Source: a virus. From it: a stretch of DNA of 29,889 nucleotides. The stretch is from positions 1 through 29,889 of IMG/VR virus record IMGVR_UViG_3300045135_001134, one strand, 5' to 3'. Of this stretch, positions 3,708-27,447 are shown in pieces (positions within the stretch are counted from its first letter, which is position 1; the number at the start of each line of letters is the position of its first letter). A program made the translations under genes and the position numbers. Below the pieces are notes generated by a model that was not told where the DNA came from, ran no database searches, and saw only the letters and a program-made list of their open reading frames with translations.

Positions 3708-3725
3708 ACGGTTCTTCGGAACCGT
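3708..3725 (+). other. UUCG-capped hairpin in the nrdA leader
   Basis: ACGGTTC (3708-3714), loop TTCG (3715-3718), GAACCGT (3719-3725): a perfect 7-bp stem closed by the extra-stable C(UUCG)G tetraloop, about 14 bases into the predicted transcript. No T-run follows, so it is more likely a 5' mRNA-stabilising or translation-modulating element than a terminator. It also argues against the GTG at 3724 as the nrdA start. Confidence 0.8.
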
Positions 3726-3762
3726 GGATTTCTTTACGTTTTACAAAAGGTTTGTGACCAAA

Positions 3763-5748
3763 ATGAAAGTGAAAATCGACAAGAAAAGAGACGACCTGCT
3801 TGAAGACTATGCAGTAGGTATGTTGAAAGACTTCTACATGAATGAATATGAATCCTCACCCCAAGAAGCGTACTCACGCGCATCGACTGCATGGGCAAAA
3901 TACAAAGACGAACTCGATCCAAAGCACGCACAGAGGTTGTATGATTATGTTTCGAAAAAATGGTTCATGTTTGCATCACCTGTATTGTCAAATGCACCGA
4001 ATGGTCACGACAATAAAAACAAAGGTATGCCAATTTCGTGTTTCCTTACATATGTTCCTGATACACTTGAGGGACTCATTGACCACAGTTCAGAACTCCG
4101 ATGGTTATCTGTTTATGGTGGGGGCGTTGGTGGTCATTGGAGCGATGTGCGTACAGTATCTGATGTTGCTCCTGGCCCAATCCCCTTTCTCCACACAGTA
4201 GACGCAGACATGATCGCCTATCGTCAGGGTAAGACTCGTAAGGGTTCTTATGCGGCGTATATGGACGTATCGCATCCTGACATCATTGAGTTTCTGAATC
4301 TACGTATTCCTACGGGTGATGTACAACGTAAAGCATTGAACCTACACAATGCGATCAATCTCACAGATGAATTCATGAATGCAGTTATAAATAATACTAC
4401 ATTCGATTTGCGGGATCCTAAAGATGGCGCAGTCAAAGAAACTGTCAACGCTCGTAAACTATGGGAGCGAATTATTGAGATCCGTTTCCGTACTGGAGAA
4501 CCGTATCTCAACTTCATTGATACCGCTAACCGAGATCTCCCGCAATCTCTACGTGATCTTGGACTTCGTATTAACGGTTCCAATCTCTGCAATGAGATTC
4601 ACCTTCCAACTTCTGCTGACCGCACTGCTGTTTGCTGTCTATCCTCACTCAACCTAGAATACTATGATGAGTGGAAAGATACTTCGATTGTTCGTGATCT
4701 TGTGCGTATGCTTGACAACGTCTTGCAGTACTTTATCGACAACGCACCAGATACAATATCGAGAGCGAAGTATAGTGCTGAACGAGAGAGATCTATCGGA
4801 CTTGGCGCTATGGGGTTCCACTCCCTACTTCAAAAACACGGTGTTGCGTGGGAAAGTGAAACTGCGAAAGAAATCAATAAGGTGGTCTTTTCACATATCA
4901 AAGAAGAAGCCGTCGCAGAAACTCAACTTCTCGCTCAAGAAAGAGGAGAATATCCCGATGGTGTTGGAACAGGTCGACGTAATGCCCACCTGCTTGCTAT
5001 TGCACCCAACGCATCCTCTGGTGTCATACTGTCCACCAGCCCCTCAATAGAACCATCAAAGGCAAACGCATACACGCACCGTACACGTGCGGGTTCGTTC
5101 TTAGTCAAGAACAAGTATCTTGAACAGTTACTTGATGAGAAGGGGCAGAACAACGAGTCTATCTGGACATCGATCATCACCAACAAAGGTTCGGTACAAC
5201 ACCTGCCGTTTCTGACTGAAGGTGAGAAGGCGATATATAAGACTGCACAAGAGTTAGATCAGAACTGGGTTGTACAACACGCCGCAGATCGTCAACCCTA
5301 CATTTGTCAGGGTCAGTCGGTCAACCTGTTCTTCCCATCGGGTGCACAGAAATCGTATGTAAACAAGGTGCACCTGAAGGCGTTTAAGGAAGGTCTGAAA
5401 GGTTTGTACTATCTGCGTACCGAAGCGAAGAGCCGTGCTGAGAACGTCTCAGAGAAGGTAGAGCGCGTTGCATTACAGGATGATACACGTTCTATCGTAT
5501 ACAGTAAAAAGAACTGTCCATTCTGCGCACTGGCAATGGAAGAATTGAAACTGCGTGGAATACCGTTTGACAAGATCGATCTTGAAGAGATTGGCAAGAC
5601 CGCATCCGAAGTTACAGGTCGTAAAGTCGGAACGGTTCCACAAATTTATATTGAAGGACAGTATGTCGGTGGTTACGAAGAATTGATGGCGTTTCTAAAT
5701 AACGCACCAGTTCAAGAATCTGACGAATGTCGAGCATGTGAAGGTTAA
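3763..5748 (+). CDS. nrdA: Class I ribonucleotide reductase large subunit fused to glutaredoxin
   Basis: Reduces ribonucleotides to deoxyribonucleotides with NrdB, in the cytoplasm. Family hallmarks: ISCFLTY (first redox Cys), SNLCNEIHLPT (radical triad N/C/E), AVCCLSSLNL (second redox Cys) and GLYYLRT (radical-relay Tyr pair). There is no N-terminal ATP-cone. After the barrel, residues about 575-645 form a glutaredoxin domain (C585-P-F-C588, TVPQIYI, GGYEEL), followed by a terminal C656-R-A-C659-E-G that looks like the usual NrdA redox tail. I chose ATG 3763 (661 aa); the reading frame extends to GTG 3724, but that lies in a hairpin. AAAAGG precedes the ATG. Driven by the 3659 promoter. Confidence 0.95.
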   Translation: MKVKIDKKRDDLLEDYAVGMLKDFYMNEYESSPQEAYSRASTAWAKYKDELDPKHAQRLYDYVSKKWFMFASPVLSNAPNGHDNKNKGMPISCFLTYVPDTLEGLIDHSSELRWLSVYGGGVGGHWSDVRTVSDVAPGPIPFLHTVDADMIAYRQGKTRKGSYAAYMDVSHPDIIEFLNLRIPTGDVQRKALNLHNAINLTDEFMNAVINNTTFDLRDPKDGAVKETVNARKLWERIIEIRFRTGEPYLNFIDTANRDLPQSLRDLGLRINGSNLCNEIHLPTSADRTAVCCLSSLNLEYYDEWKDTSIVRDLVRMLDNVLQYFIDNAPDTISRAKYSAERERSIGLGAMGFHSLLQKHGVAWESETAKEINKVVFSHIKEEAVAETQLLAQERGEYPDGVGTGRRNAHLLAIAPNASSGVILSTSPSIEPSKANAYTHRTRAGSFLVKNKYLEQLLDEKGQNNESIWTSIITNKGSVQHLPFLTEGEKAIYKTAQELDQNWVVQHAADRQPYICQGQSVNLFFPSGAQKSYVNKVHLKAFKEGLKGLYYLRTEAKSRAENVSEKVERVALQDDTRSIVYSKKNCPFCALAMEELKLRGIPFDKIDLEEIGKTASEVTGRKVGTVPQIYIEGQYVGGYEELMAFLNNAPVQESDECRACEG

Positions 5749-11524: not shown

Positions 11525-12379
11525 ATGAACAATTGGTTCCGCGAACCAATCTCAGGACAACCTATTTTCGTTAATGATGATTATGAAATAGATTGGCGCG
11601 GGACGATTGGTGTTGGTGATATTCTTTATGGTTTGAATTGTGCACATGCATTGGCACATCTTCACAACCATCCCATTCGTATGAACGTCTTTTGGACTCA
11701 CGATGAAGACTATCTTTATCATCATGAAGATCCAGAGACCATCATTGAACGGTCGGATTATCTACACAACCTGTATCATCGTCAATCCGATGTGACCGTT
11801 AATCACATCTTCAACTCTACGGATGCAGAGATTGAAAAACTAAGATGGCGTGGATTTGGTCATCGTAGTGATCCCCAACGAGTGTTATCATTTCATCACT
11901 GGATGTTTCGAAAAGAATTGTGGCACACAGGAATACCCAAGAAGGTTGTGTTCTGGAGACCCACATTCAATCGTGAGATTCCTGATGGTGGCAAGAAATG
12001 GAAGATGACTTTCTCAGTCAAAGAGTGGGAACGCATCGTCGAGTTTCTTCGTCTCAAAGGTTATGACCTTGTTGAATTGACATATCGAACACCTGTAAAC
12101 GAGGCCGTCTACCACATACGCACCTCGTCGTTTTGTGTATTCTATGACGGAATGTGGCAGTACATCGCACGAAACTTCTGCAAGCCTGTGATTACTCTTG
12201 GTGGTAGTGGTATCTGTACAACACACAGTCCTCAAGGAGTATGGTTTAAAAAACCACATGATCCTAAAAACGATTTTTGGGACTACCTATATAAATTACC
12301 TAAGAATGAAGAACACCTGAATCGGCGGGCAGAACGTTACAAAAACAAACTATGGGAATCGTTAAATGTTAAAGATTGA
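11525..12379 (+). CDS. GT-B-like putative glycosyltransferase
   Basis: A 284-residue protein. The N-terminal glycine motif TIGVGDILYGLNCAHALA (27-44) and the C-terminal FCVFYDGMWQYIARNFCKPVITLGGSG resemble the two halves of GT-B transferases (heptosyltransferase/GT9-like), where the second half binds the nucleotide-sugar. Many His/Trp residues are present. The full catalytic assignment is uncertain. First gene of the glycan island; its 3' end overlaps the radical SAM gene by 14 bases. Confidence 0.55.
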   Translation: MNNWFREPISGQPIFVNDDYEIDWRGTIGVGDILYGLNCAHALAHLHNHPIRMNVFWTHDEDYLYHHEDPETIIERSDYLHNLYHRQSDVTVNHIFNSTDAEIEKLRWRGFGHRSDPQRVLSFHHWMFRKELWHTGIPKKVVFWRPTFNREIPDGGKKWKMTFSVKEWERIVEFLRLKGYDLVELTYRTPVNEAVYHIRTSSFCVFYDGMWQYIARNFCKPVITLGGSGICTTHSPQGVWFKKPHDPKNDFWDYLYKLPKNEEHLNRRAERYKNKLWESLNVKD

Positions 12380-13334
12380 TCGTGCCGTTATTGAAGTGAA
12401 TGGTGGTTGTAACTATTCGTGTGCAATGTGTCCGCAGGACATGAGAACAGGTGGCCGTCACAAAGACTTTCTCAAGAAAATGTCACTCCAAGAGTTTGAA
12501 GATAACGTTGCGGACTGTGCAAAACACGGACTGAACGTTGTGAATCTGGACGGGTCTGGTGAAGCAACCTTGAATCGGGATCTTCCCAAGTACATCGAGA
12601 TCGTGAAGAAATATGGTGCGAAAGCATTTATCTTCTCGAACGGTTATCGAATGGAAGGACAGTTCATGCGCGACTGTGTGGACGCAGGACTCGACTTCTA
12701 TCGTTTCTCATGGATTGGTTCTGATCCAATTGAATATGAAAAGTGGATGTACAATCGCATTGGTGGTGACTTTGGAAGTACGTGGGACAAAGTCGGTGCC
12801 ATGCGTGATTATGTCAAACAGTCAGGTTCGGACTGTGTGGTTGCAACCTATCATTTGATGACCAAGACTGATCCAAAAGAATTTGAACAAGAACTTGAAG
12901 CATACAAACGAATCGTTGAAACGCTGGATGTGAAAACAGAGATCTGGACTATGCACAATTGGTCTGGAGTTTACAAACCTGTTAAAGAACGACAAGGGAA
13001 AATTAAAACCTGCGGAAGACCATTTAGTCCAGATGTTGTTATTCGTGCTGGTGGGTTGGATGGTAAAAGAGGTGCTGTACATCCGTGTTGTCAGGTATTG
13101 GGACGCGATGAGGAAGCAGTCCTTGGACACACGAGTGAAAACACTATTGAAGAGATATGGTACGGAGATGCGTATAATGAGTTGCGTAATCAACACCTTT
13201 CTGGGGATTATCCTTCTTATTGCCGTGATTGTGACTTTCTAATAGACGATCCTGAAGTTTTGGTATGGACAAACTTCGAACGTGATCTGTACAAGATGCA
13301 CGGTACTGAGTTCGATCTAGAGGATTACCGATGA
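12366..13334 (+). CDS. Radical SAM enzyme with SPASM-like C-terminus
   Basis: A 322-residue protein. C15-x3-C19-x2-C22 binds the SAM-cleaving 4Fe-4S cluster, with a glycine motif LDGSGEATLN. C-terminal cysteines C216, C241, C242, C286 and C289 look like a SPASM/twitch domain holding auxiliary cluster(s). Such enzymes modify peptides, sugars or small molecules by radical chemistry. The substrate is unknown; the neighbours are glycosyltransferases, so sugar or glycan modification is plausible. The end overlaps the next gene (ATGA-type). Confidence 0.88.
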   Translation: MLKIDRAVIEVNGGCNYSCAMCPQDMRTGGRHKDFLKKMSLQEFEDNVADCAKHGLNVVNLDGSGEATLNRDLPKYIEIVKKYGAKAFIFSNGYRMEGQFMRDCVDAGLDFYRFSWIGSDPIEYEKWMYNRIGGDFGSTWDKVGAMRDYVKQSGSDCVVATYHLMTKTDPKEFEQELEAYKRIVETLDVKTEIWTMHNWSGVYKPVKERQGKIKTCGRPFSPDVVIRAGGLDGKRGAVHPCCQVLGRDEEAVLGHTSENTIEEIWYGDAYNELRNQHLSGDYPSYCRDCDFLIDDPEVLVWTNFERDLYKMHGTEFDLEDYR

Positions 13335-13900: not shown

Positions 13901-14694
13901 AACAATTGATATATCAAGTATGTGTTGGTGAGTCGAAGAATTCCAAACTGTACAAACACTGCATACAGAGCGTTGCAGACTACTGTGAGAAACACGGAAT
14001 AGAACACATAGTCCAACGAGAACCTAAACTTCGAATTGCACCAGATCCATTCATGTCAAATCGCAGTCAAGAGTCACACCAGAAACACGGTGGATTTCTA
14101 CCTATCTACGAGAAAGAAAATGCATTTGACCTGTTAGATCAGTATGACCAGATCGCGATCATTGATGCTGACATCTACATTCGATCAGACGCACCCAACA
14201 TCTTTGAAGACTTTGGTACTGAGAAATCGTTTGGCGCAGTGAGTGAACGTGAGATGCCAATTCAAGGTTGGTATCAACAAAAGATCATAAACTATTCACA
14301 GATGCAGTATGCACATTTACACCGTACCGCAATCGGCGTTGATTTCAAACCAAACAAACTCGGGTATGAGTTTTTCAACATGGGTTTGATCCTGTTGAAC
14401 TGTCAGAAGTTTAAACCATATCTCAAGGGTCAGACCGCAAAACAATTCATACAACGTGCGGAGTTCATGCCGTTTGTGAATGGGGAAGGCGCATGGAAGT
14501 GGAGTACCGATCAGACGCTTCTAAACTTCTTTGTTAAGAAGCATCGTGTTGATGTTAAACATATGGATTGGAAATGGAATGGTCTGTTCACCGCAAACAT
14601 AAAGATAAAGGAGTGTCACTTTGTACATTTCTTTTTGAAAGACAAACTACCCGATCGTGGTGAGAATGTCGAGGAACTAATGAAACAGATATGA
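13897..14694 (+). CDS. GT8-like glycosyltransferase
   Basis: A 265-residue GT-A enzyme. The DxD metal motif is IIDADIYI (D90-A-D92), followed by a GT8-like YEFFNMGLILLN segment and a C-terminal ECHFVHFFLKDKL resembling the GT8 H-x-GxxKPW region. Uses a nucleotide-sugar in the cytoplasm; acceptor unknown. Overlaps both neighbours by four bases. Confidence 0.75.
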   Translation: MKQLIYQVCVGESKNSKLYKHCIQSVADYCEKHGIEHIVQREPKLRIAPDPFMSNRSQESHQKHGGFLPIYEKENAFDLLDQYDQIAIIDADIYIRSDAPNIFEDFGTEKSFGAVSEREMPIQGWYQQKIINYSQMQYAHLHRTAIGVDFKPNKLGYEFFNMGLILLNCQKFKPYLKGQTAKQFIQRAEFMPFVNGEGAWKWSTDQTLLNFFVKKHRVDVKHMDWKWNGLFTANIKIKECHFVHFFLKDKLPDRGENVEELMKQI

Positions 14695-15797
14695 GTTACG
14701 AAGAAAAGACACAGAAGTATAGTACGTGGGGTGACAAGTATCTTCAACATACTGACGTGTTGTATTCCATTCAATACGAAGACAAGTTCAAACCGATCAA
14801 CATTCAGTTATCACTGTGTGAAATCTGCGACAGCGATTGTCCATTCTGTTCCGTTGCGGCACGCCCACTGAAAAGCTACATTTCATGGCCTAAACTGGTC
14901 AAGATGATGCACGACTTTGCAATACTGGGGGCAAAGGCAGTTGAGATCACGGGTGGTGGTAATCCATTACTCTATCGTGACAAAGAACACAAGAAAGACA
15001 TCAACGATGTGGTGACATTGTGTCATGAACTTGGTTTCGACGTGGGTATCATTACAAACACAGAGAAACTTGAGCGTCACCTTAAACCCGAAGTGTATGA
15101 TAAAATCAACTGGATTCGTATCAGTCTAATCAAACTCGACGAAGGAAAAGAACCCGAAGATTATGATTTCGGATCATTTCCAAAAGACAAGATTGGAATG
15201 AGTTATATCATCTATGAAAGCACGGGTGGTGTTCCTGATGAACTGTCTCGAACAAACAAACCGTATGTTGGTACGACGAAAGATACCATCATCAAGATTG
15301 CAAAACTAATCGAGTTGAATCCCGAGGTTAAATTCTGTCGTATTGCGGGTAACGCATTGATCGATGGGTATCAGACAACTATTCAGGAGAAGTGGAGATC
15401 GGTACTCGAAGAGATCGACAACCATTCTAAATTTTTCATTAAAGATGTGTGGGACTCAACCAAACCATTCGAAGACGGTTGTTATGTTGGTCTGACTCGG
15501 CCTTACATTGCACCTCACCCTGATGGTGGAGAGTATCAGGTTTATATTTGCACCAGTCATGTTTTGGAAGCACGAACATACAAACTAGAATTTTCTCTGG
15601 GTAACATTGACAATGTTATTAAAATATGGGATAATTGTAATCTGAACTATGCACAGTATGGTTATCCTTATGAAGTGCGTGATAACAAGGGCAGTTGTTG
15701 GGACAAGGCCTGTGGAACTTGTCTGTACTATAACAACAACCGATTATTGCATACTGTCGCTCAAGAAATGGATAAGGATGACAGGAACTTTGCATAA
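14691..15797 (+). CDS. Radical SAM enzyme 2
   Basis: A 368-residue protein with the cluster motif C46-DSD-C50-PF-C53 preceded by INIQLSLCEI, and an ITGGGNPLLY glycine motif. C-terminal cysteines (about C267, C286, and the CWDKACGTCLYY group) suggest one or more auxiliary clusters. It differs in sequence from the 12366 enzyme, so this is not a recent duplication. A chemically unusual sugar or lipid modification is likely, substrate unknown. TAA overlaps the next ATG. Confidence 0.85.
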   Translation: MSYEEKTQKYSTWGDKYLQHTDVLYSIQYEDKFKPINIQLSLCEICDSDCPFCSVAARPLKSYISWPKLVKMMHDFAILGAKAVEITGGGNPLLYRDKEHKKDINDVVTLCHELGFDVGIITNTEKLERHLKPEVYDKINWIRISLIKLDEGKEPEDYDFGSFPKDKIGMSYIIYESTGGVPDELSRTNKPYVGTTKDTIIKIAKLIELNPEVKFCRIAGNALIDGYQTTIQEKWRSVLEEIDNHSKFFIKDVWDSTKPFEDGCYVGLTRPYIAPHPDGGEYQVYICTSHVLEARTYKLEFSLGNIDNVIKIWDNCNLNYAQYGYPYEVRDNKGSCWDKACGTCLYYNNNRLLHTVAQEMDKDDRNFA

Positions 15798-16372: not shown

Positions 16373-16837
16373 ATGAAAATTATTAGTCACCGTGGCAATC
16401 TTAATGGCCCAGATCCACTTACAGAGAACTCACCCACACAAATCGATCTCTGTATCTCGAAAGAATACGATGTCGAAGTTGATCTGTGGGTCAATGACGG
16501 TGAGTTGTGGTTAGGCCATGATAAACCCGAGTATCCGATTTCTAAAACATGGTTGACTTTTCGTGTACGCAATCTGTGGGTTCATTGTAAAAACATTGAG
16601 GCGATATACTACCTCAAACAAGAATGTCCACAGATCAATTATTTTTGGCACCAACAAGACGATTACACATTAACATCACATGGGTGGGTGTGGGCATATC
16701 CTGATCAACCTGTACCAAAAAAAGATCCCGATGTTGCGTTTGGTCAAAGATCTGTTTGTGTTATGCCCGAACTGCACAACTCTGATCCAAGTAATTTTAA
16801 TGCAATATGTACAGATTACCCTGAGAGGTACAAGTGA
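16373..16837 (+). CDS. Compact GDPD-type phosphodiesterase
   Basis: A 154-residue protein with the glycerophosphodiester phosphodiesterase catalytic set: H6-R7 (ISHRGN), E19-N20, E35/D37 (VEVDLWV) and H49-D50 (LGHD), ending with CTDYPERY like the C-terminal TDxP of the family. It is much shorter than usual GDPDs (about 240-260 aa), yet the motifs from both ends are there, so it is compact rather than truncated. It may act on a glycerol-phosphate or other phosphodiester in a glycan. Confidence 0.75.
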   Translation: MKIISHRGNLNGPDPLTENSPTQIDLCISKEYDVEVDLWVNDGELWLGHDKPEYPISKTWLTFRVRNLWVHCKNIEAIYYLKQECPQINYFWHQQDDYTLTSHGWVWAYPDQPVPKKDPDVAFGQRSVCVMPELHNSDPSNFNAICTDYPERYK

Positions 16838-18180
16838 TCAAACTGGTTTTATTTGACCTTGACGGGGTTCTGGTCGATGCGAAGAACATTCACTACCTTG
16901 CGTTGAACGAGGCACTGGGCGAAGAATATGCGATCTCATCTGAGGATCATCGCAACATCTATGACGGTCGTAAGACAAATGAAAAGTTGCAGATGTTGAC
17001 TGAACGCAAGGGTCTTCCTGTAGAGTCACACAAGTCTATCTTCGATAAGAAACAGTCGCGCACTGTAGAACTGATGCACGAACTCCCATTGAACACGAAT
17101 GCTCTGGAGTTATTCAAAGAACTAGAACATCAAGGGTACATGATTGGTGTGTGTTCTAACAGTATACGAAGAACGGTACTCACCGCATTATCAAAGTCAG
17201 GTCTGATTGAATATTGTTCGGTCATACTCTCCAACGAGGATGTGAAGAACTCTAAACCCCATCCCGAGATCTATTGGAAAGCAATGTCCATGATGGGTGT
17301 GTTACCAGACGAAACCATTATTGTAGAAGACTCACCTCCTGGCTTACTGGCAGCAGAACGTTCACGAGCTTCCTATATACGTGTAGAGAGTCCGAATGAA
17401 GTGACCAAAGAAAACATAATGCCCAAATTAGAGACAACAAAGATAATGAACAAATGGAAAGATGATAAACTAAATGTACTGATTCCTATGGCAGGTGCAG
17501 GATCTCGATTCGCACAGGCAGGATACACATTCCCAAAACCTCTAATTGATGTAAATGGTAAACCCATGATTCAGATTGTGGTAGAGAACCTCGGCCTAGA
17601 TGCAAACTTCATCTTTGTTGTTCAGAAAGAACATCGTGAACGGTTCAAACTAGATAACATGTTACCTCTGATTGCACCCAACTGCAAGATAGTAGAAGTG
17701 GATGGAATCACAGAGGGTGCGGCATGTACTGCGTTACTTGCAAAAGAGTTCATCGATAACGATGGCCCTTTGTTCTTTGCCAACTCTGATCAGTACGTTG
17801 AGTGGGAACCTGTACAGTTTATGTATGATATGCAGGAGACTCAGGCTGACGGTGGTATCGTAACATTCAAAGCAACACATCCCAAGTGGTCGTTTGCAAA
17901 GATTGACGAGAGTGGTCTGGTGACTGAGGTTGCAGAGAAGAATCCTATCAGTGACAATGCAACCGTGGGGTATTACTACTGGAAACACGGTTCTGATTTT
18001 GTCAGATATGCGGAACAAATGATTGAGAAAGATGTTCGAGTCAATGGTGAATTCTATGTGTGTCCAGTATTCAATCAAGCAATCAAAGACTGCAAAAAAA
18101 TTCGAGTGCACGAAGCGTCTGCGATGTGGGGATTAGGAACACCCGAAGATTTAGAATACTACCTCAAGGAAAGAAAATGA
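16834..18180 (+). CDS. HAD phosphatase - sugar-phosphate nucleotidyltransferase fusion
   Basis: A 448-residue bifunctional protein. Residues 1-205 form a HAD phosphatase/mutase: FDLDG (D8/D10), CSNS (about 107-110), KPHPEIY (K141), VEDSPPG. Residues 213-448 form a nucleotidyltransferase: LIPMAGAGSRF (glycine/Arg loop) and FPKPLIDVNGKPM, then FFANSDQY as the metal site. It would dephosphorylate one intermediate and activate a sugar (or alditol/choline-like) phosphate as NDP- or CDP-derivative for the island's transferases. GTG start overlaps the upstream TGA. Confidence 0.88.
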   Translation: MIKLVLFDLDGVLVDAKNIHYLALNEALGEEYAISSEDHRNIYDGRKTNEKLQMLTERKGLPVESHKSIFDKKQSRTVELMHELPLNTNALELFKELEHQGYMIGVCSNSIRRTVLTALSKSGLIEYCSVILSNEDVKNSKPHPEIYWKAMSMMGVLPDETIIVEDSPPGLLAAERSRASYIRVESPNEVTKENIMPKLETTKIMNKWKDDKLNVLIPMAGAGSRFAQAGYTFPKPLIDVNGKPMIQIVVENLGLDANFIFVVQKEHRERFKLDNMLPLIAPNCKIVEVDGITEGAACTALLAKEFIDNDGPLFFANSDQYVEWEPVQFMYDMQETQADGGIVTFKATHPKWSFAKIDESGLVTEVAEKNPISDNATVGYYYWKHGSDFVRYAEQMIEKDVRVNGEFYVCPVFNQAIKDCKKIRVHEASAMWGLGTPEDLEYYLKERK

Positions 18181-24153: not shown

Positions 24154-24824
24154 TTACTGTATGTTGTGTGTTGTGGGGAGACAAGTTCTCTGAAGAGTAT
24201 GTTCATAATCTAAAGGCGGCAGTAGAACGAAACACGACTGTGCCTCATGAGTTTGTGTGTCTGAGTGATCGACAGATTAAGGGTGTCAAGACTAAGTTAC
24301 TCAAGCCTGGAGTTACGGGTTGGTGGAATAAGTTGCAGTTGTTTGATGGTGAGATCAAGGGGCGTATTGTCTATCTTGACCTTGATACATTGATCACGTC
24401 TAACATCGATTGGTTGTTGAATTACTCTGGTAACTTTGCGGGTATTGAAGATCTGGGTGTTGCGAATGCACATCAACAACATCTCAAAGGTGTGATGCAG
24501 TCTGGTGTGATGGCATGGAAGTCGGAGTGGATGGATTGGTTGTATGTTGAGTTTTCATTCTCTCGCGATACAGTGATGCAACAGTTTCGAGGTGACGGTG
24601 AGTACCTAAATTACATCGTAAAACGGCGGGATCTTCTACAACATATATACCCCAACAAGATACAGTCGTACAAGTATCAAGTGTATCCACAAAACATAGA
24701 AGGTACGTCGATCATCTGTTTTCATGGTCGACCAAGTATAATTCAGGCAATGAATGAGTCAGTAACTACTCCAATGAGAACGTACTGGCCACAAGAATGG
24801 GTAAAGGATTATTGGCATGGGTAA
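24150..24824 (+). CDS. GT-A glycosyltransferase with DLDT motif
   Basis: A 224-residue protein: MITVCCVLWGDKFSEEYV, FVCLSDR, GWWNKLQLF, then the metal motif VYLDLDTLI (D77-L-D79), a GVMAWKSEW segment and C-terminal IICFHGRPSI. The layout is that of GT8-related transferases from surface-polysaccharide loci. The 3' end overlaps the next gene by eight bases. Confidence 0.75.
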   Translation: MITVCCVLWGDKFSEEYVHNLKAAVERNTTVPHEFVCLSDRQIKGVKTKLLKPGVTGWWNKLQLFDGEIKGRIVYLDLDTLITSNIDWLLNYSGNFAGIEDLGVANAHQQHLKGVMQSGVMAWKSEWMDWLYVEFSFSRDTVMQQFRGDGEYLNYIVKRRDLLQHIYPNKIQSYKYQVYPQNIEGTSIICFHGRPSIIQAMNESVTTPMRTYWPQEWVKDYWHG

Positions 24825-25569
24825 GGTAGTTCATGTAATAGGTAATGGTGATCGAGCGCATTATTATCAGGATGAACCTCGAAAAGGTTTGAAACTTCTG
24901 TGTAATATGCCTCCGTTCACAGTTGATCCAAAGGAAGTCTTTGCTACCTGTATGGTAGACTTTAAGATGATGATGGCGTTGACTGCGGGAGAGATTAAAC
25001 TCGATCAGTATCAGTGGGTTCTTGGAACTCGTCCTCGTATTTGGATGTATGAACGTTCTGCATTCTACATGAAGTATGCACCCAACGTTCGTGAGTTCTA
25101 TACGCACGTTCCACAGTATGCAGGTAACGCAACCAACTTTAACTGTGGTCACATGGCAGTTCACTATGCAGCTGCAAGACACAACGCAGACGAAGTTCAC
25201 CTATATGGATTTGACACAATCTTTGATTTCAATATGCGAAGTTACACCGATGTGATACTATCCAGTGATCGGTCACAGAGTAACAACTATCGCCTGTTGA
25301 ATATCTGGAGACCAATCTGGAGAGACATCTTCCGTGAGTTTCCCAAGACTAAGTTCGTCCTTCATCACAATCATGATGTTTTGAAAATACCAAAGCTTGA
25401 CAACGTTGAGGTAAAGCTGTATAATAGTAAAGGTCTGTCCAAGGCACAGTCGAAAGAAGATCCGTCAGATATCAGTGACGGCCGCGGCATGGAAGTCCCT
25501 ATCAATACTGCACCTCTCAATCGTAAACAGAGACGTGCCCAAGAAGCGTTGCAACGTAAGGCGAAATGA
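24817..25569 (+). CDS. DUF115/GT42-like Rossmann protein
   Basis: A 250-residue protein: VVHVIGNGDRAHYY at the N-terminus and CGHMAVHYAAARHNADEVHLYGFDTIFDF in the centre resemble the DUF115/sialyltransferase-like (GT29/GT42) group, in which the second block sits at the nucleotide-sugar pocket. The C-terminus is a basic linker ending in LNRKQRRAQEALQRKAK. A transferase role is plausible but not shown by a catalytic residue I can name. Last gene of the glycan island. Confidence 0.55.
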   Translation: MGKVVHVIGNGDRAHYYQDEPRKGLKLLCNMPPFTVDPKEVFATCMVDFKMMMALTAGEIKLDQYQWVLGTRPRIWMYERSAFYMKYAPNVREFYTHVPQYAGNATNFNCGHMAVHYAAARHNADEVHLYGFDTIFDFNMRSYTDVILSSDRSQSNNYRLLNIWRPIWRDIFREFPKTKFVLHHNHDVLKIPKLDNVEVKLYNSKGLSKAQSKEDPSDISDGRGMEVPINTAPLNRKQRRAQEALQRKAK

Positions 25570-26237
25570 TGTTTGAACATGTAGGAATCGATCTGGGTTA
25601 TTCTGATCTGGAGGCGATTACAACTGAACATGGTAGACGATATGTCATGCCCAATGGTGGTGCATATCCGTCAATTACTACTGTACTTTCTATTCTGAGT
25701 GAAGCAGGGATTGCTGCGTGGAGAAAGAGAGTAGGAGAAGAAGAGGCAAACAAGATCTCTTATCGTGCTTCTCAACGAGGAACCGCTGTACACGAAATTA
25801 CTGAGAAGTACATCAACAATGATGAAGACTACACCAGTGGTTTCATGCCCAATGTGGTTAGTGATTTTCAATCGATCAAACCGATACTGGATGAACGGAT
25901 TGGTAAAGTGTACGCACAAGAGGTACCCTTGTACTCCGACTACCTTAAGGTTGCGGGGCGTGTAGACTGTATTGCAGAGTTCGACGGTAAACTGTCTGTC
26001 ATAGACTTCAAGACCAGTCGACGTTACAAGTCTCACAGTCATGTGAAAAACTATTTCCAACAAGAGGCATTCTATGCAATTGCGTGGGAAGAACGCACAG
26101 GAATGCCTATTACACAACTCGTTACAATCATTGCGGTTGATGATGGTGGATCGCAAGTGTTCGTTGAACATCGTGATGATTGGGCCCCAGAATTACAAAA
26201 AACAATAGGGAAGTATTATGAACGAGAAAATTCGTGA
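25566..26237 (+). CDS. PD-(D/E)XK exonuclease (MGME1/RecB-like)
   Basis: A 223-residue nuclease. PD-(D/E)XK signatures: GTAVHEITEKY (H76), QEVPLYS (E119), GRVDCIAEF (D134), LSVIDFKTS (D147-x-K149) and QQEAFYAIA (QxxxY motif). The pattern is that of MGME1/RecB-type single-strand exonucleases frequent in marine T4-like phages, acting in replication or recombination. Start ATG 25566 overlaps the previous stop; an ATG three bases later is equally possible. Overlaps the ho gene by 20 bases. Confidence 0.85.
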   Translation: MMFEHVGIDLGYSDLEAITTEHGRRYVMPNGGAYPSITTVLSILSEAGIAAWRKRVGEEEANKISYRASQRGTAVHEITEKYINNDEDYTSGFMPNVVSDFQSIKPILDERIGKVYAQEVPLYSDYLKVAGRVDCIAEFDGKLSVIDFKTSRRYKSHSHVKNYFQQEAFYAIAWEERTGMPITQLVTIIAVDDGGSQVFVEHRDDWAPELQKTIGKYYERENS

Positions 26238-26727
26238 GATTCACGACGAAGTTGAACGTCTACCTTTCTCTCAGGCATTGTTCAACGGAGAGTTGACTAG
26301 ACACCAAACCGTTGCGTATCTAAACAATCAGTACTTTATTTTCCAGGCGATGGAACATTCGTTGAACAAACTACCACACAAATCACTACTTCGTTGTGAA
26401 AAGATTAAAGAATGTCTTGCCGAACTGAACGAAGAAGTGAATGGAAAGTGGATGGCAAAGGCCACACAAGACTACATCAAAGAAATCATTGATACCGAAG
26501 ATAATCGAGAGAAATGGATGTCACACGTTTATCTGAACTATATGGCGATGATGATGGGTGGTTCTATTCTCGCAGAGAAGAGTCCAGAGTTGGCACGGAT
26601 GTGGTACTTTACTGATCGTTCTGAATGTATCAAGTCTATTCGAGATGAAAAGGTTGATTGGGATCAAGTCGAGGAAGGGTTTCAGTATCACCGTGGTATA
26701 CTAGAGGAACTGATCCATGTGGAATGA
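26218..26727 (+). CDS. ho: Heme oxygenase-like protein (biliverdin-forming)
   Basis: A 169-residue, all-helical protein. IREIHDEVERLPF carries H9, matching the proximal heme-ligand position of heme oxygenases (H25 in HO-1). QYFIFQAMEHSL and SHVYLNYMAMMMGGSILAEK (102-121) match the distal helix with its Gly pair (GDLSGGQ in HO-1). It would cleave heme to biliverdin, CO and iron using ferredoxin or another reductant. It is shorter than cyanophage enzymes (about 230 aa). The bilin reductase start lies inside its 3' end, a strong functional link. TenA-type alternatives are less likely given that neighbour. Confidence 0.75.
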   Translation: MNEKIREIHDEVERLPFSQALFNGELTRHQTVAYLNNQYFIFQAMEHSLNKLPHKSLLRCEKIKECLAELNEEVNGKWMAKATQDYIKEIIDTEDNREKWMSHVYLNYMAMMMGGSILAEKSPELARMWYFTDRSECIKSIRDEKVDWDQVEEGFQYHRGILEELIHVE

Positions 26728-27355
26728 TTTCCTTGATCTGAAACGAGAACTCACTAGGGTCTTCACTTATTATTGTGAGAACGGAAAACCAGATCATTAT
26801 GAAGAGTACGACCACTACAACTGGTACTGGAAAAGTAAAAGACTAGAACTTGGTCATATCTCAGTTGTTGACAAACGTGAGTCACACGGTATATGGATGA
26901 TGCACGTCAACGCCTATGCACGTGTAACCTATCCGATGCCTATCTACGGTTTCGATGTGGTGTGTGGCAAGAAGAAAGTTACAGGATGTTTTCACGATCT
27001 GTCTCCGACTGGATACAACAGTATGAGAATGGAACGTAAAGAAGTCAAACGAGAACGTGAACTACCAGACTGGGCCAAAGAGATCTTTTCGGGAGATATG
27101 CTCGCAGCGGGTAACATCACCGATCGTGATGAAATCATAGAGTACGCAACGATGGGACTGGACAATCTGGAGTCTTGGTTTATCAAACTGGAGTCATTGA
27201 ACATGGCATCCCCACCAGTGAACTACATTGCAGCTCGATCAAAATACTGTCACAATCAGTTACAGAACCCCCACAGTTTCAATGTGATGAAGAGTCTAGG
27301 TCTCCCCGAAGACTATCTCACTGAATTCAAAATGAATAAACAATTCCCCTTTTAG
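26717..27355 (+). CDS. pcyX: Ferredoxin-dependent bilin reductase, PcyA/PcyX type
   Basis: A 212-residue reductase of the HY2/FDBR family. Hallmarks: WMMHVNAYARVTYPMPIYGFDVV, FHDLSPTG, ELPDWAKEIFSGDMLAAG, and a C-terminal YCHNQLQNPHSF ... FPF. H63 and D80 are 17 residues apart, as are the catalytic pair H88/D105 of PcyA, so it is PcyA/PcyX-like rather than PebS-like (which has Asn at the His site). It would reduce biliverdin from the upstream heme oxygenase to a bilin such as phycoerythrobilin or phycocyanobilin. The start overlaps ho by 11 bases. No ferredoxin gene is visible here. Confidence 0.88.
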   Translation: MWNDFLDLKRELTRVFTYYCENGKPDHYEEYDHYNWYWKSKRLELGHISVVDKRESHGIWMMHVNAYARVTYPMPIYGFDVVCGKKKVTGCFHDLSPTGYNSMRMERKEVKRERELPDWAKEIFSGDMLAAGNITDRDEIIEYATMGLDNLESWFIKLESLNMASPPVNYIAARSKYCHNQLQNPHSFNVMKSLGLPEDYLTEFKMNKQFPF

Positions 27356-27372
27356 AACAAAATATTCTAAAA
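27350..27372 (+). other. AT-rich hairpin after the bilin reductase gene
   Basis: TTTTAGAA (27350-27357), loop CAAAATA, TTCTAAAA (27365-27372): a perfect but weak 8-bp stem spanning the stop codon. It is followed by A's, not T's, so it is not a convincing intrinsic terminator on this strand; it may protect the mRNA 3' end. Confidence 0.4.
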
Positions 27373-27388
27373 AAACTTCATAATTCGC

Positions 27389-27417
27389 TTCCTTTTCTTT
27401 TAAAAACATAGTATAAT
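27389..27417 (+). promoter_or_regulatory. Early-type promoter copy 1
   Basis: TTCCTT (27389-27394), 17 bases, TATAAT (27412-27417), followed by a leader TACCATGTAATTGAGAGAGAGG that is nearly identical in copy 2. Member of a three-copy family (with 28605 and 29261), each preceded by CGCTT and placed 30-34 bases before an ATG. The GAGAGAGAGG doubles as ribosome site. Confidence 0.8.
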
Positions 27418-27447
27418 TACCATGTAATTGAGAGAGAGGAAGAAATT

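Follow-up and report, generated by a model that had tools for sequence, protein, structure and literature searches.

A 29,889-base virus record, here called the window, carries a heme oxygenase (HO) gene and a bilin reductase (FDBR) gene that, as judged by sequence comparison, belong to a known phage gene set and form a separate branch of it, in which textbook catalytic residues are replaced in both enzymes. Because the branch is separate and these residues are replaced, neither its pigment nor its purpose can be read from known examples. Such cassettes have been described as hemO-pcyX in marine phage sequences and in the SAR11 phage Mosig, and with alaS in freshwater phages; the purpose of phage HO and bilin reductase in non-photosynthetic hosts is 'still enigmatic' according to the describing group (PMC11480375).

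On balance, the pair probably forms a translationally coupled phage heme-catabolism module, with heme/iron turnover rather than light harvesting as its likely benefit. HO would bind host heme through His9 and open it to biliverdin IX-alpha, iron and CO, using a distal pocket that would no longer rely on the Tyr58-Arg136-Asp140 hydrogen-bond network. FDBR would reduce the biliverdin with ferredoxin electrons, probably the host's, employing His63 and Asp80 with no acid at the Glu76/Asp55 position and giving some reduced bilin. This reduction may draw product off or dispose of biliverdin during heme/iron turnover in infection. The window's branch (the S clade, with Ser at the Glu76/Asp55 position) amounts to a natural experiment: catalytic residues have been exchanged in both enzymes, and selection still acts on the two proteins. 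As two small, expressible proteins, they could be used to test the need for distal Asp and Arg in heme oxygenation and the determinant of phycoerythrobilin (PEB) versus PCB formation.

The phage and the cassette locus

The window derives from a virus of aquatic bacteria. The virus is T4-like, in agreement with an earlier sequence-only reading: it encodes a class I RNR, PhoH, a tail lysozyme and a T4-type exonuclease, and gp32 is present in relatives. The RNR large subunit has a fused C-terminal glutaredoxin domain (window 3724-5748; Pfam Glutaredoxin, E 5.5e-11). The nearest annotated genome is Phage C48C1 (Kyanoviridae, no host recorded; RNR 79.7%, exonuclease 62.8%), in which the cassette was not found, being absent from the cassette search matches.

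A long glycan island in the window holds GT25/GT8 enzymes, radical SAM proteins and sugar-nucleotide genes. A recurring order, from glycan genes through a conserved protein and the exonuclease to HO and FDBR (Table 1), was seen on comparing 22 S-clade sequences, in some of which it is broken by one or two insertions; this indicates that the cassette is stably retained in S-clade genomes. Within the island, two radical SAM proteins lie amid glycosyltransferases (window 12366-13334 and 14691-15797, one with SPASM), and window 16834-18180 encodes a predicted HAD hydrolase-nucleotidyltransferase fusion, probably for an activated sugar. A TET-associated glycosyltransferase gene (PF20691, E 9e-47) lies by the cassette in one relative (L021:2132-3088), and its cluster also occurs in L017, L018, L039 and L042; this gene suggests DNA base hypermodification in those relatives.

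HO and FDBR are adjacent and co-oriented in a tailed phage, as in other phage hemO-FDBR cassettes. The overlap between them, already noted from the letters, amounts to 11 nt and suggests translational coupling. Purine-rich stretches lie 5' of each gene, GGGAAG at ~26209 for HO and GAGGAA at 26704-26709 for FDBR.

Table 1. Features of the HO-FDBR locus, in window coordinates; hHO-1 is human HO
Feature	Position	Strand	Assignment and basis
Conserved protein	24817-25569	+	5' of exonuclease; no Pfam match; cluster 3, present in 19 of the 22 S-clade sequences compared (the window included)
T4-type PD-(D/E)XK exonuclease	25566-26237	+	Overlaps HO start; conserved upstream neighbour; phrog_298 (E 1e-77), synteny
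HO, rewired type	26218-26727	+	Pfam, AlphaFold model, fold match, residue mapping
HO His9	26242-26244	+	hHO-1 His25 (proximal, heme-binding)
HO Phe42	26341-26343	+	hHO-1 Tyr58
HO Asn107	26536-26538	+	hHO-1 Arg136
HO Met111	26548-26550	+	hHO-1 Asp140
HO Gly114-Gly115		+	hHO-1 Gly143-144 (distal)
HO His158	26689-26691	+	hHO-1 Asn210
HO end/FDBR start overlap	26717-26727	+	11 nt; coordinates, sequence
FDBR, S-type	26717-27355	+	Pfam, PDB sequence match, model, residue mapping
FDBR Ser49	26861-26863	+	PcyA Glu76/PcyX Asp55
FDBR His63	26903-26905	+	PcyA His88
FDBR Asp80	26954-26956	+	PcyA Asp105
AT-rich gap past FDBR	27356-27447	+	TATAAT at 27414-27419 before next small-gene run; putative promoter from sequence reading, TATAAT not listed by consensus scan

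The bilin reductase and its serine column

The sequence-only reading had named profile searches, structure prediction and an FDBR phylogeny as checks. In profile searches, neither gene falls outside its family (Pfam Heme_oxygenase and Fe_bilin_red), and both structure predictions returned the expected folds. The 212-aa FDBR matches Fe_bilin_red above the curated cut-off (E 5.3e-9), and its closest PDB sequence is 5owg, PcyX_EBK42635 (E 6e-42), with PcyA next (2e-6). Its AlphaFold model, made with an alignment of relatives as input, has a pLDDT of 89.8 and finds 5owg as the best Foldseek match, with PcyX, PcyA, PebA and others returned. The gene is therefore of the PcyA/PcyX type, as first read.

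Equating His63 and Asp80 with the PcyA catalytic pair was correct as far as it went. The two residues align with His88 and Asp105, are invariant in a 42-row FDBR alignment and, among 78 aligned FDBRs, occur in every PcyA/PcyX-branch sequence that extends over their positions; the equation is incomplete, however, as the third catalytic position is Ser49. PcyA enzymes of cyanobacteria, cyanophages and Acetobacteraceae share the pair and the fold with the window FDBR but differ in Glu76, which is present in every PcyA compared. The Ser49 column is that of PcyA Glu76, since the E76Q mutant chain 3i95 departs from wild type exactly there. For PcyX, Mosig Met1 aligns to residue 9 of the 5owg chain (8-residue tag), so that native Asp55 is chain residue 63; it is the first D of HLDVVD, where the window reads HISVVD.

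Across the 78 FDBRs, this column holds E in PcyA, D in the Mosig/5owg group, S in the group to which the window belongs and K in another, third set of phage sequences. On an IQ-TREE phylogeny built after deleting the column, S (17 rows, 100/100), K (17 rows, 100/100) and D (9 rows, 92/93) are each single groups, and the column requires four changes for five groups, the minimum. The window FDBR groups with the D and K phage types, but within an S clade of its own that lies outside the D clade. Its FDBR sits outside the biochemically characterised PcyX clade.

Asp55 has been called PcyX-specific and catalytic; marine PcyX makes PEB, while the PcyA of phage CB_2 makes PCB (PMC11480375). As the window FDBR has neither Asp55 (PEB) nor Glu76 (PCB), neither product is predictable. 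Pre-PcyA enzymes lack both Glu76 and His88 (PMC10151467), and their products are phytochromobilin or PEB, as cited in PMC13193486. A rule by which absence of Asp55 would give PCB was not adopted, as CB_2 is known here by description, without the residue at that column.

The pair might nevertheless be an ordinary PcyX cassette whose changes are neutral in outcome, with HO making biliverdin and FDBR making phycoerythrobilin like marine PcyX. Its closest solved relative is PcyX, the two-gene order is the same, and the S, D and K FDBRs cluster together with support (100/99), apart from the PcyA-like enzymes of a further set of contigs, the X group. PcyX (EBK42635, 5owg) and Mosig (EXVC030M) also resemble the window in having an overlapping hemO-FDBR pair from a marine T4-like phage, an FDBR ~41% identical and the same His/Asp pair. 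They differ from it at Asp55, where the window has Ser49, and in HO, where Arg/Asp stand for the window's Asn/Met. Neutral change seems unlikely when Ser occupies the Asp55 site in 17 of 17 S-clade representatives, the clade separates with full support (100/100) and the HO changes are clade-wide too.

Partner genes, host and the use of the bilin

The recurring DUF454 (PF04304) neighbour is a concrete lead to heme/iron metabolism. In about half of the S clade, this gene lies directly 3' of FDBR, overlapping its end by ~38 nt in most contigs (hemO-FDBR-DUF454 loci L018-L020, L022, L023, L025-L028, L035, L039-L042 and L157-L166). In Proteobacteria, the domains most often found beside cluster 1 T11SS genes include HO and DUF454, with an iron-uptake functional signal (PMC12282271), and a DUF454 gene is induced under iron restriction (PMC7970244). 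By analogy, the neighbour suggests a part in heme/iron turnover for the phage cassette. Two points weigh against this main reading: the DUF454 link is not present in the window's own subclade, and iron release alone would need no FDBR.

The vHemO-vPcyA-vAlaS cassette of the peat-bog phage CB_2 is similar in combining HO with an FDBR lacking Asp55 in a presumed non-cyanobacterial host, and its HO and FDBR are both active; it differs in carrying alaS and making PCB (PMC11480375). No alaS was found in S-clade or X-group contigs, and the three-gene alaS cassette therefore does not apply to them. DUF454 adjoins alaS in the K-clade contigs G041 and G043, where the alaS matches (L100, L102) contain internal stop codons, possibly edge effects or frameshifts. 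Ferrochelatase was also rejected as a linked gene, with no PF00762 match in Mosig and 49 other records; the Mosig gene annotated 'putative ferrochelatase' (L082:8354-9124) has no Pfam ferrochelatase match. A search of the large X-group contigs for pmoC, as a link to CB_2, gave no match, and its controls were silent too.

The absence of photosynthesis genes first seen in the window extends to the contig fragments of its relatives. No psbA, CpeT or PHY was found in ~30 S-clade records, which are fragments round one locus, with cyanophage or bacterial controls matching; nor did these fragments contain a Fer2 ferredoxin, which Mosig has and for which it scored positive. As the S-clade records are all metagenomic fragments, this absence is weak evidence, and they may miss a lyase, acceptor protein or ferredoxin encoded elsewhere in the genome. 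Heme/iron turnover is favoured over light use with modest confidence.

The sequence-only reading had considered the host of such cassettes unclear, a view overtaken by the isolation of the pelagiphage Mosig, which carries hemO and pcyX and infects SAR11 (PMC11480375). For the window, the nearest isolates by RNR and gp32 are C48C1, then OM43 (Melnitz), SAR11 phages and cyanophages; no single host follows from this. Its GC content of 42%, against 34% in Mosig, makes SAR11 no obvious host. The S-type FDBR was not found among bacterial genome-contig matches, which are of D, K and Acetobacteraceae type, and in a gp23 search for host placement the controls were silent. The host is apparently non-cyanobacterial.

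These observations bear on a possible role of the bilin in light sensing, as chromophore of a host sensor (phytochrome or bilin-binding globin) reprogrammed by the phage. This use appears quite unlikely, given that no PHY domain occurs in any of the S-clade fragments and that SAR11, cultured as host of a phage with a related cassette, is not known to have a phytochrome. It has precedents in co-expressed CB_2 PcyA, which feeds a phytochrome, and in Bradyrhizobium ORS278, where hemO-pcyA-alaS lies beside bphP (PMC11480375).

The heme oxygenase, its partners and selection

The 169-aa HO matches Pfam Heme_oxygenase well above the curated cut-off of 23 (49.3 bits, E 6.7e-13). Its AlphaFold model, likewise made with an alignment of relatives as input, has a pLDDT of 94.6, and its top Foldseek matches are HmuO and mammalian HO (E 9e-7, TM 0.78), in agreement with the first assignment. 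Residues are numbered here on hHO-1, to which the distal helix aligns without gaps. The canonical fold, the proximal His25, correctly located at His9 in the sequence-only reading, and the distal Gly143-Gly144 are all present. The distal helix recognised in that reading keeps the Gly-Gly but lacks the catalytic Asp and Arg: the canonical Tyr58-Arg136-Asp140 network is replaced, in a pattern that is clade-wide, and the window HO also has Ala at the Gly139 position. The window HO retains E13 (Glu29), H103 (His132), Y105 (Tyr134) and the conserved R142, and H9, E13, H103, Y105, G114, G115 and R142 are invariant across HO relatives.

The Arg136 site is Asn in 36 of 36 S-type loci and the Asp140 site M, F, W or L, whereas Asp is retained at 140 in all 16 D-type loci, and K-type loci have Glu or Asp. 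Tyr58 to Phe is specific to the S type (15/16). On the HO tree, the rewired type, with Asn at 136 and a hydrophobic residue at 140, is a single change. His158 was considered as a substitute proton donor and rejected: it is conserved in the S clade (15/16) but missing in most X-group HOs and in L039 and L130.

HO and FDBR are tightly linked. Among related FDBR loci, 71 out of 82 have a same-strand HO no more than 1.1 kb upstream, in most cases overlapping the FDBR; in the remaining 11, the available upstream sequence is shorter than 1 kb. Conversely, when the S-clade HO alignment served as query, 61 HO loci were found, all 61 adjoining an FDBR, and every rewired-type HO found has an FDBR neighbour. 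Such linkage across related loci shows that the pairing is not due to chance.

The partners, on the other hand, are not fixed. Among 91 distinct HO/FDBR pairs, the 54 HOs with Asn at 136 and a hydrophobic residue at 140 are partnered by S (35) or E (19) FDBRs only, and one His/Trp HO by an E-type FDBR, while the 36 with an acid at 140 are partnered by K (23), D (12) and E (1) types. A rewired HO was never paired with a D- or K-type FDBR, nor an acid-type HO with an S-type. The X group (L130-L155 and L172; contigs up to 271 kb) combines a rewired HO with a PcyA-like, Glu-bearing FDBR; the Glu, two residues past a conserved His, was placed by its H-x-E motif, as automatic alignment gap-shifts it. 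With one change on the HO tree and S, D and K apart from X on the FDBR tree, the two genes have different histories. L039 and L130 are a case in point: their HOs are 87.4% identical, while the adjacent FDBRs, S-type and PcyA-like with Glu, are 28.8% identical, which is an exchange of one cassette partner. This exchange suggests that the rewired HO still supplies biliverdin to S-type and PcyA-like FDBRs alike, and the PcyA-like partner is the best argument for predicting that it is active.

Alternatively, the HO-like protein may be no oxygenase but a heme binder, shuttle or peroxidase, with FDBR using host biliverdin. In human HO-1, the distal network is thought to aid oxygen activation, and D140A shifts the enzyme to peroxidase chemistry (PMC5623701); loss of the Tyr58, Arg136 and Asp140 equivalents, together with the Ala at the Gly139 site, thus counts against the main reading. 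However, plant HO-1 has neither this Arg nor this Asp and functions through another network (PMC7948506), so that their absence is no proof of inactivity. The active plant-type GmHO-1 resembles the phage HO in lacking both residues; it uses an Ala149/His150 network, whereas the phage HO retains the usual proximal H-x-x-V-E, and it has a polar His at the Asp site, where the phage HO has a hydrophobic residue. Given this precedent and the constant adjacency of FDBR, including PcyA-like FDBRs with Glu/His/Asp, a non-oxygenase seems very unlikely.

Within the preferred reading of a heme-catabolism module, a more specific proposal can be made only tentatively, and it may well prove wrong: the S clade would represent a distinct phage HO class that opens heme without the Arg/Asp proton relay, its distal pocket being apolar, and that is joined to a Ser-type FDBR whose bilin outcome is unlike that of PcyX or PcyA. 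The two genes would belong to an operon for heme/iron turnover, extended to hemO-FDBR-DUF454 in some members of the clade, that has nothing to do with photosynthesis.

Both genes are under purifying selection. In the sole pair clearly unsaturated in both, L007-L016, dN/dS is 0.11 for HO (dS 0.56) and 0.044 for FDBR (dS 0.55); other computable pairs give ~0.03-0.2, with dS mostly near saturation. That the genes are decaying or functionless passengers, as the lost key residues and the lack of a partner gene in view might suggest, has next to no likelihood in light of these already unfavourable estimates, the invariance of the alternative residues and the constant location of the pair in all S-clade contigs compared: the replaced residues are conserved alternatives, not decay.
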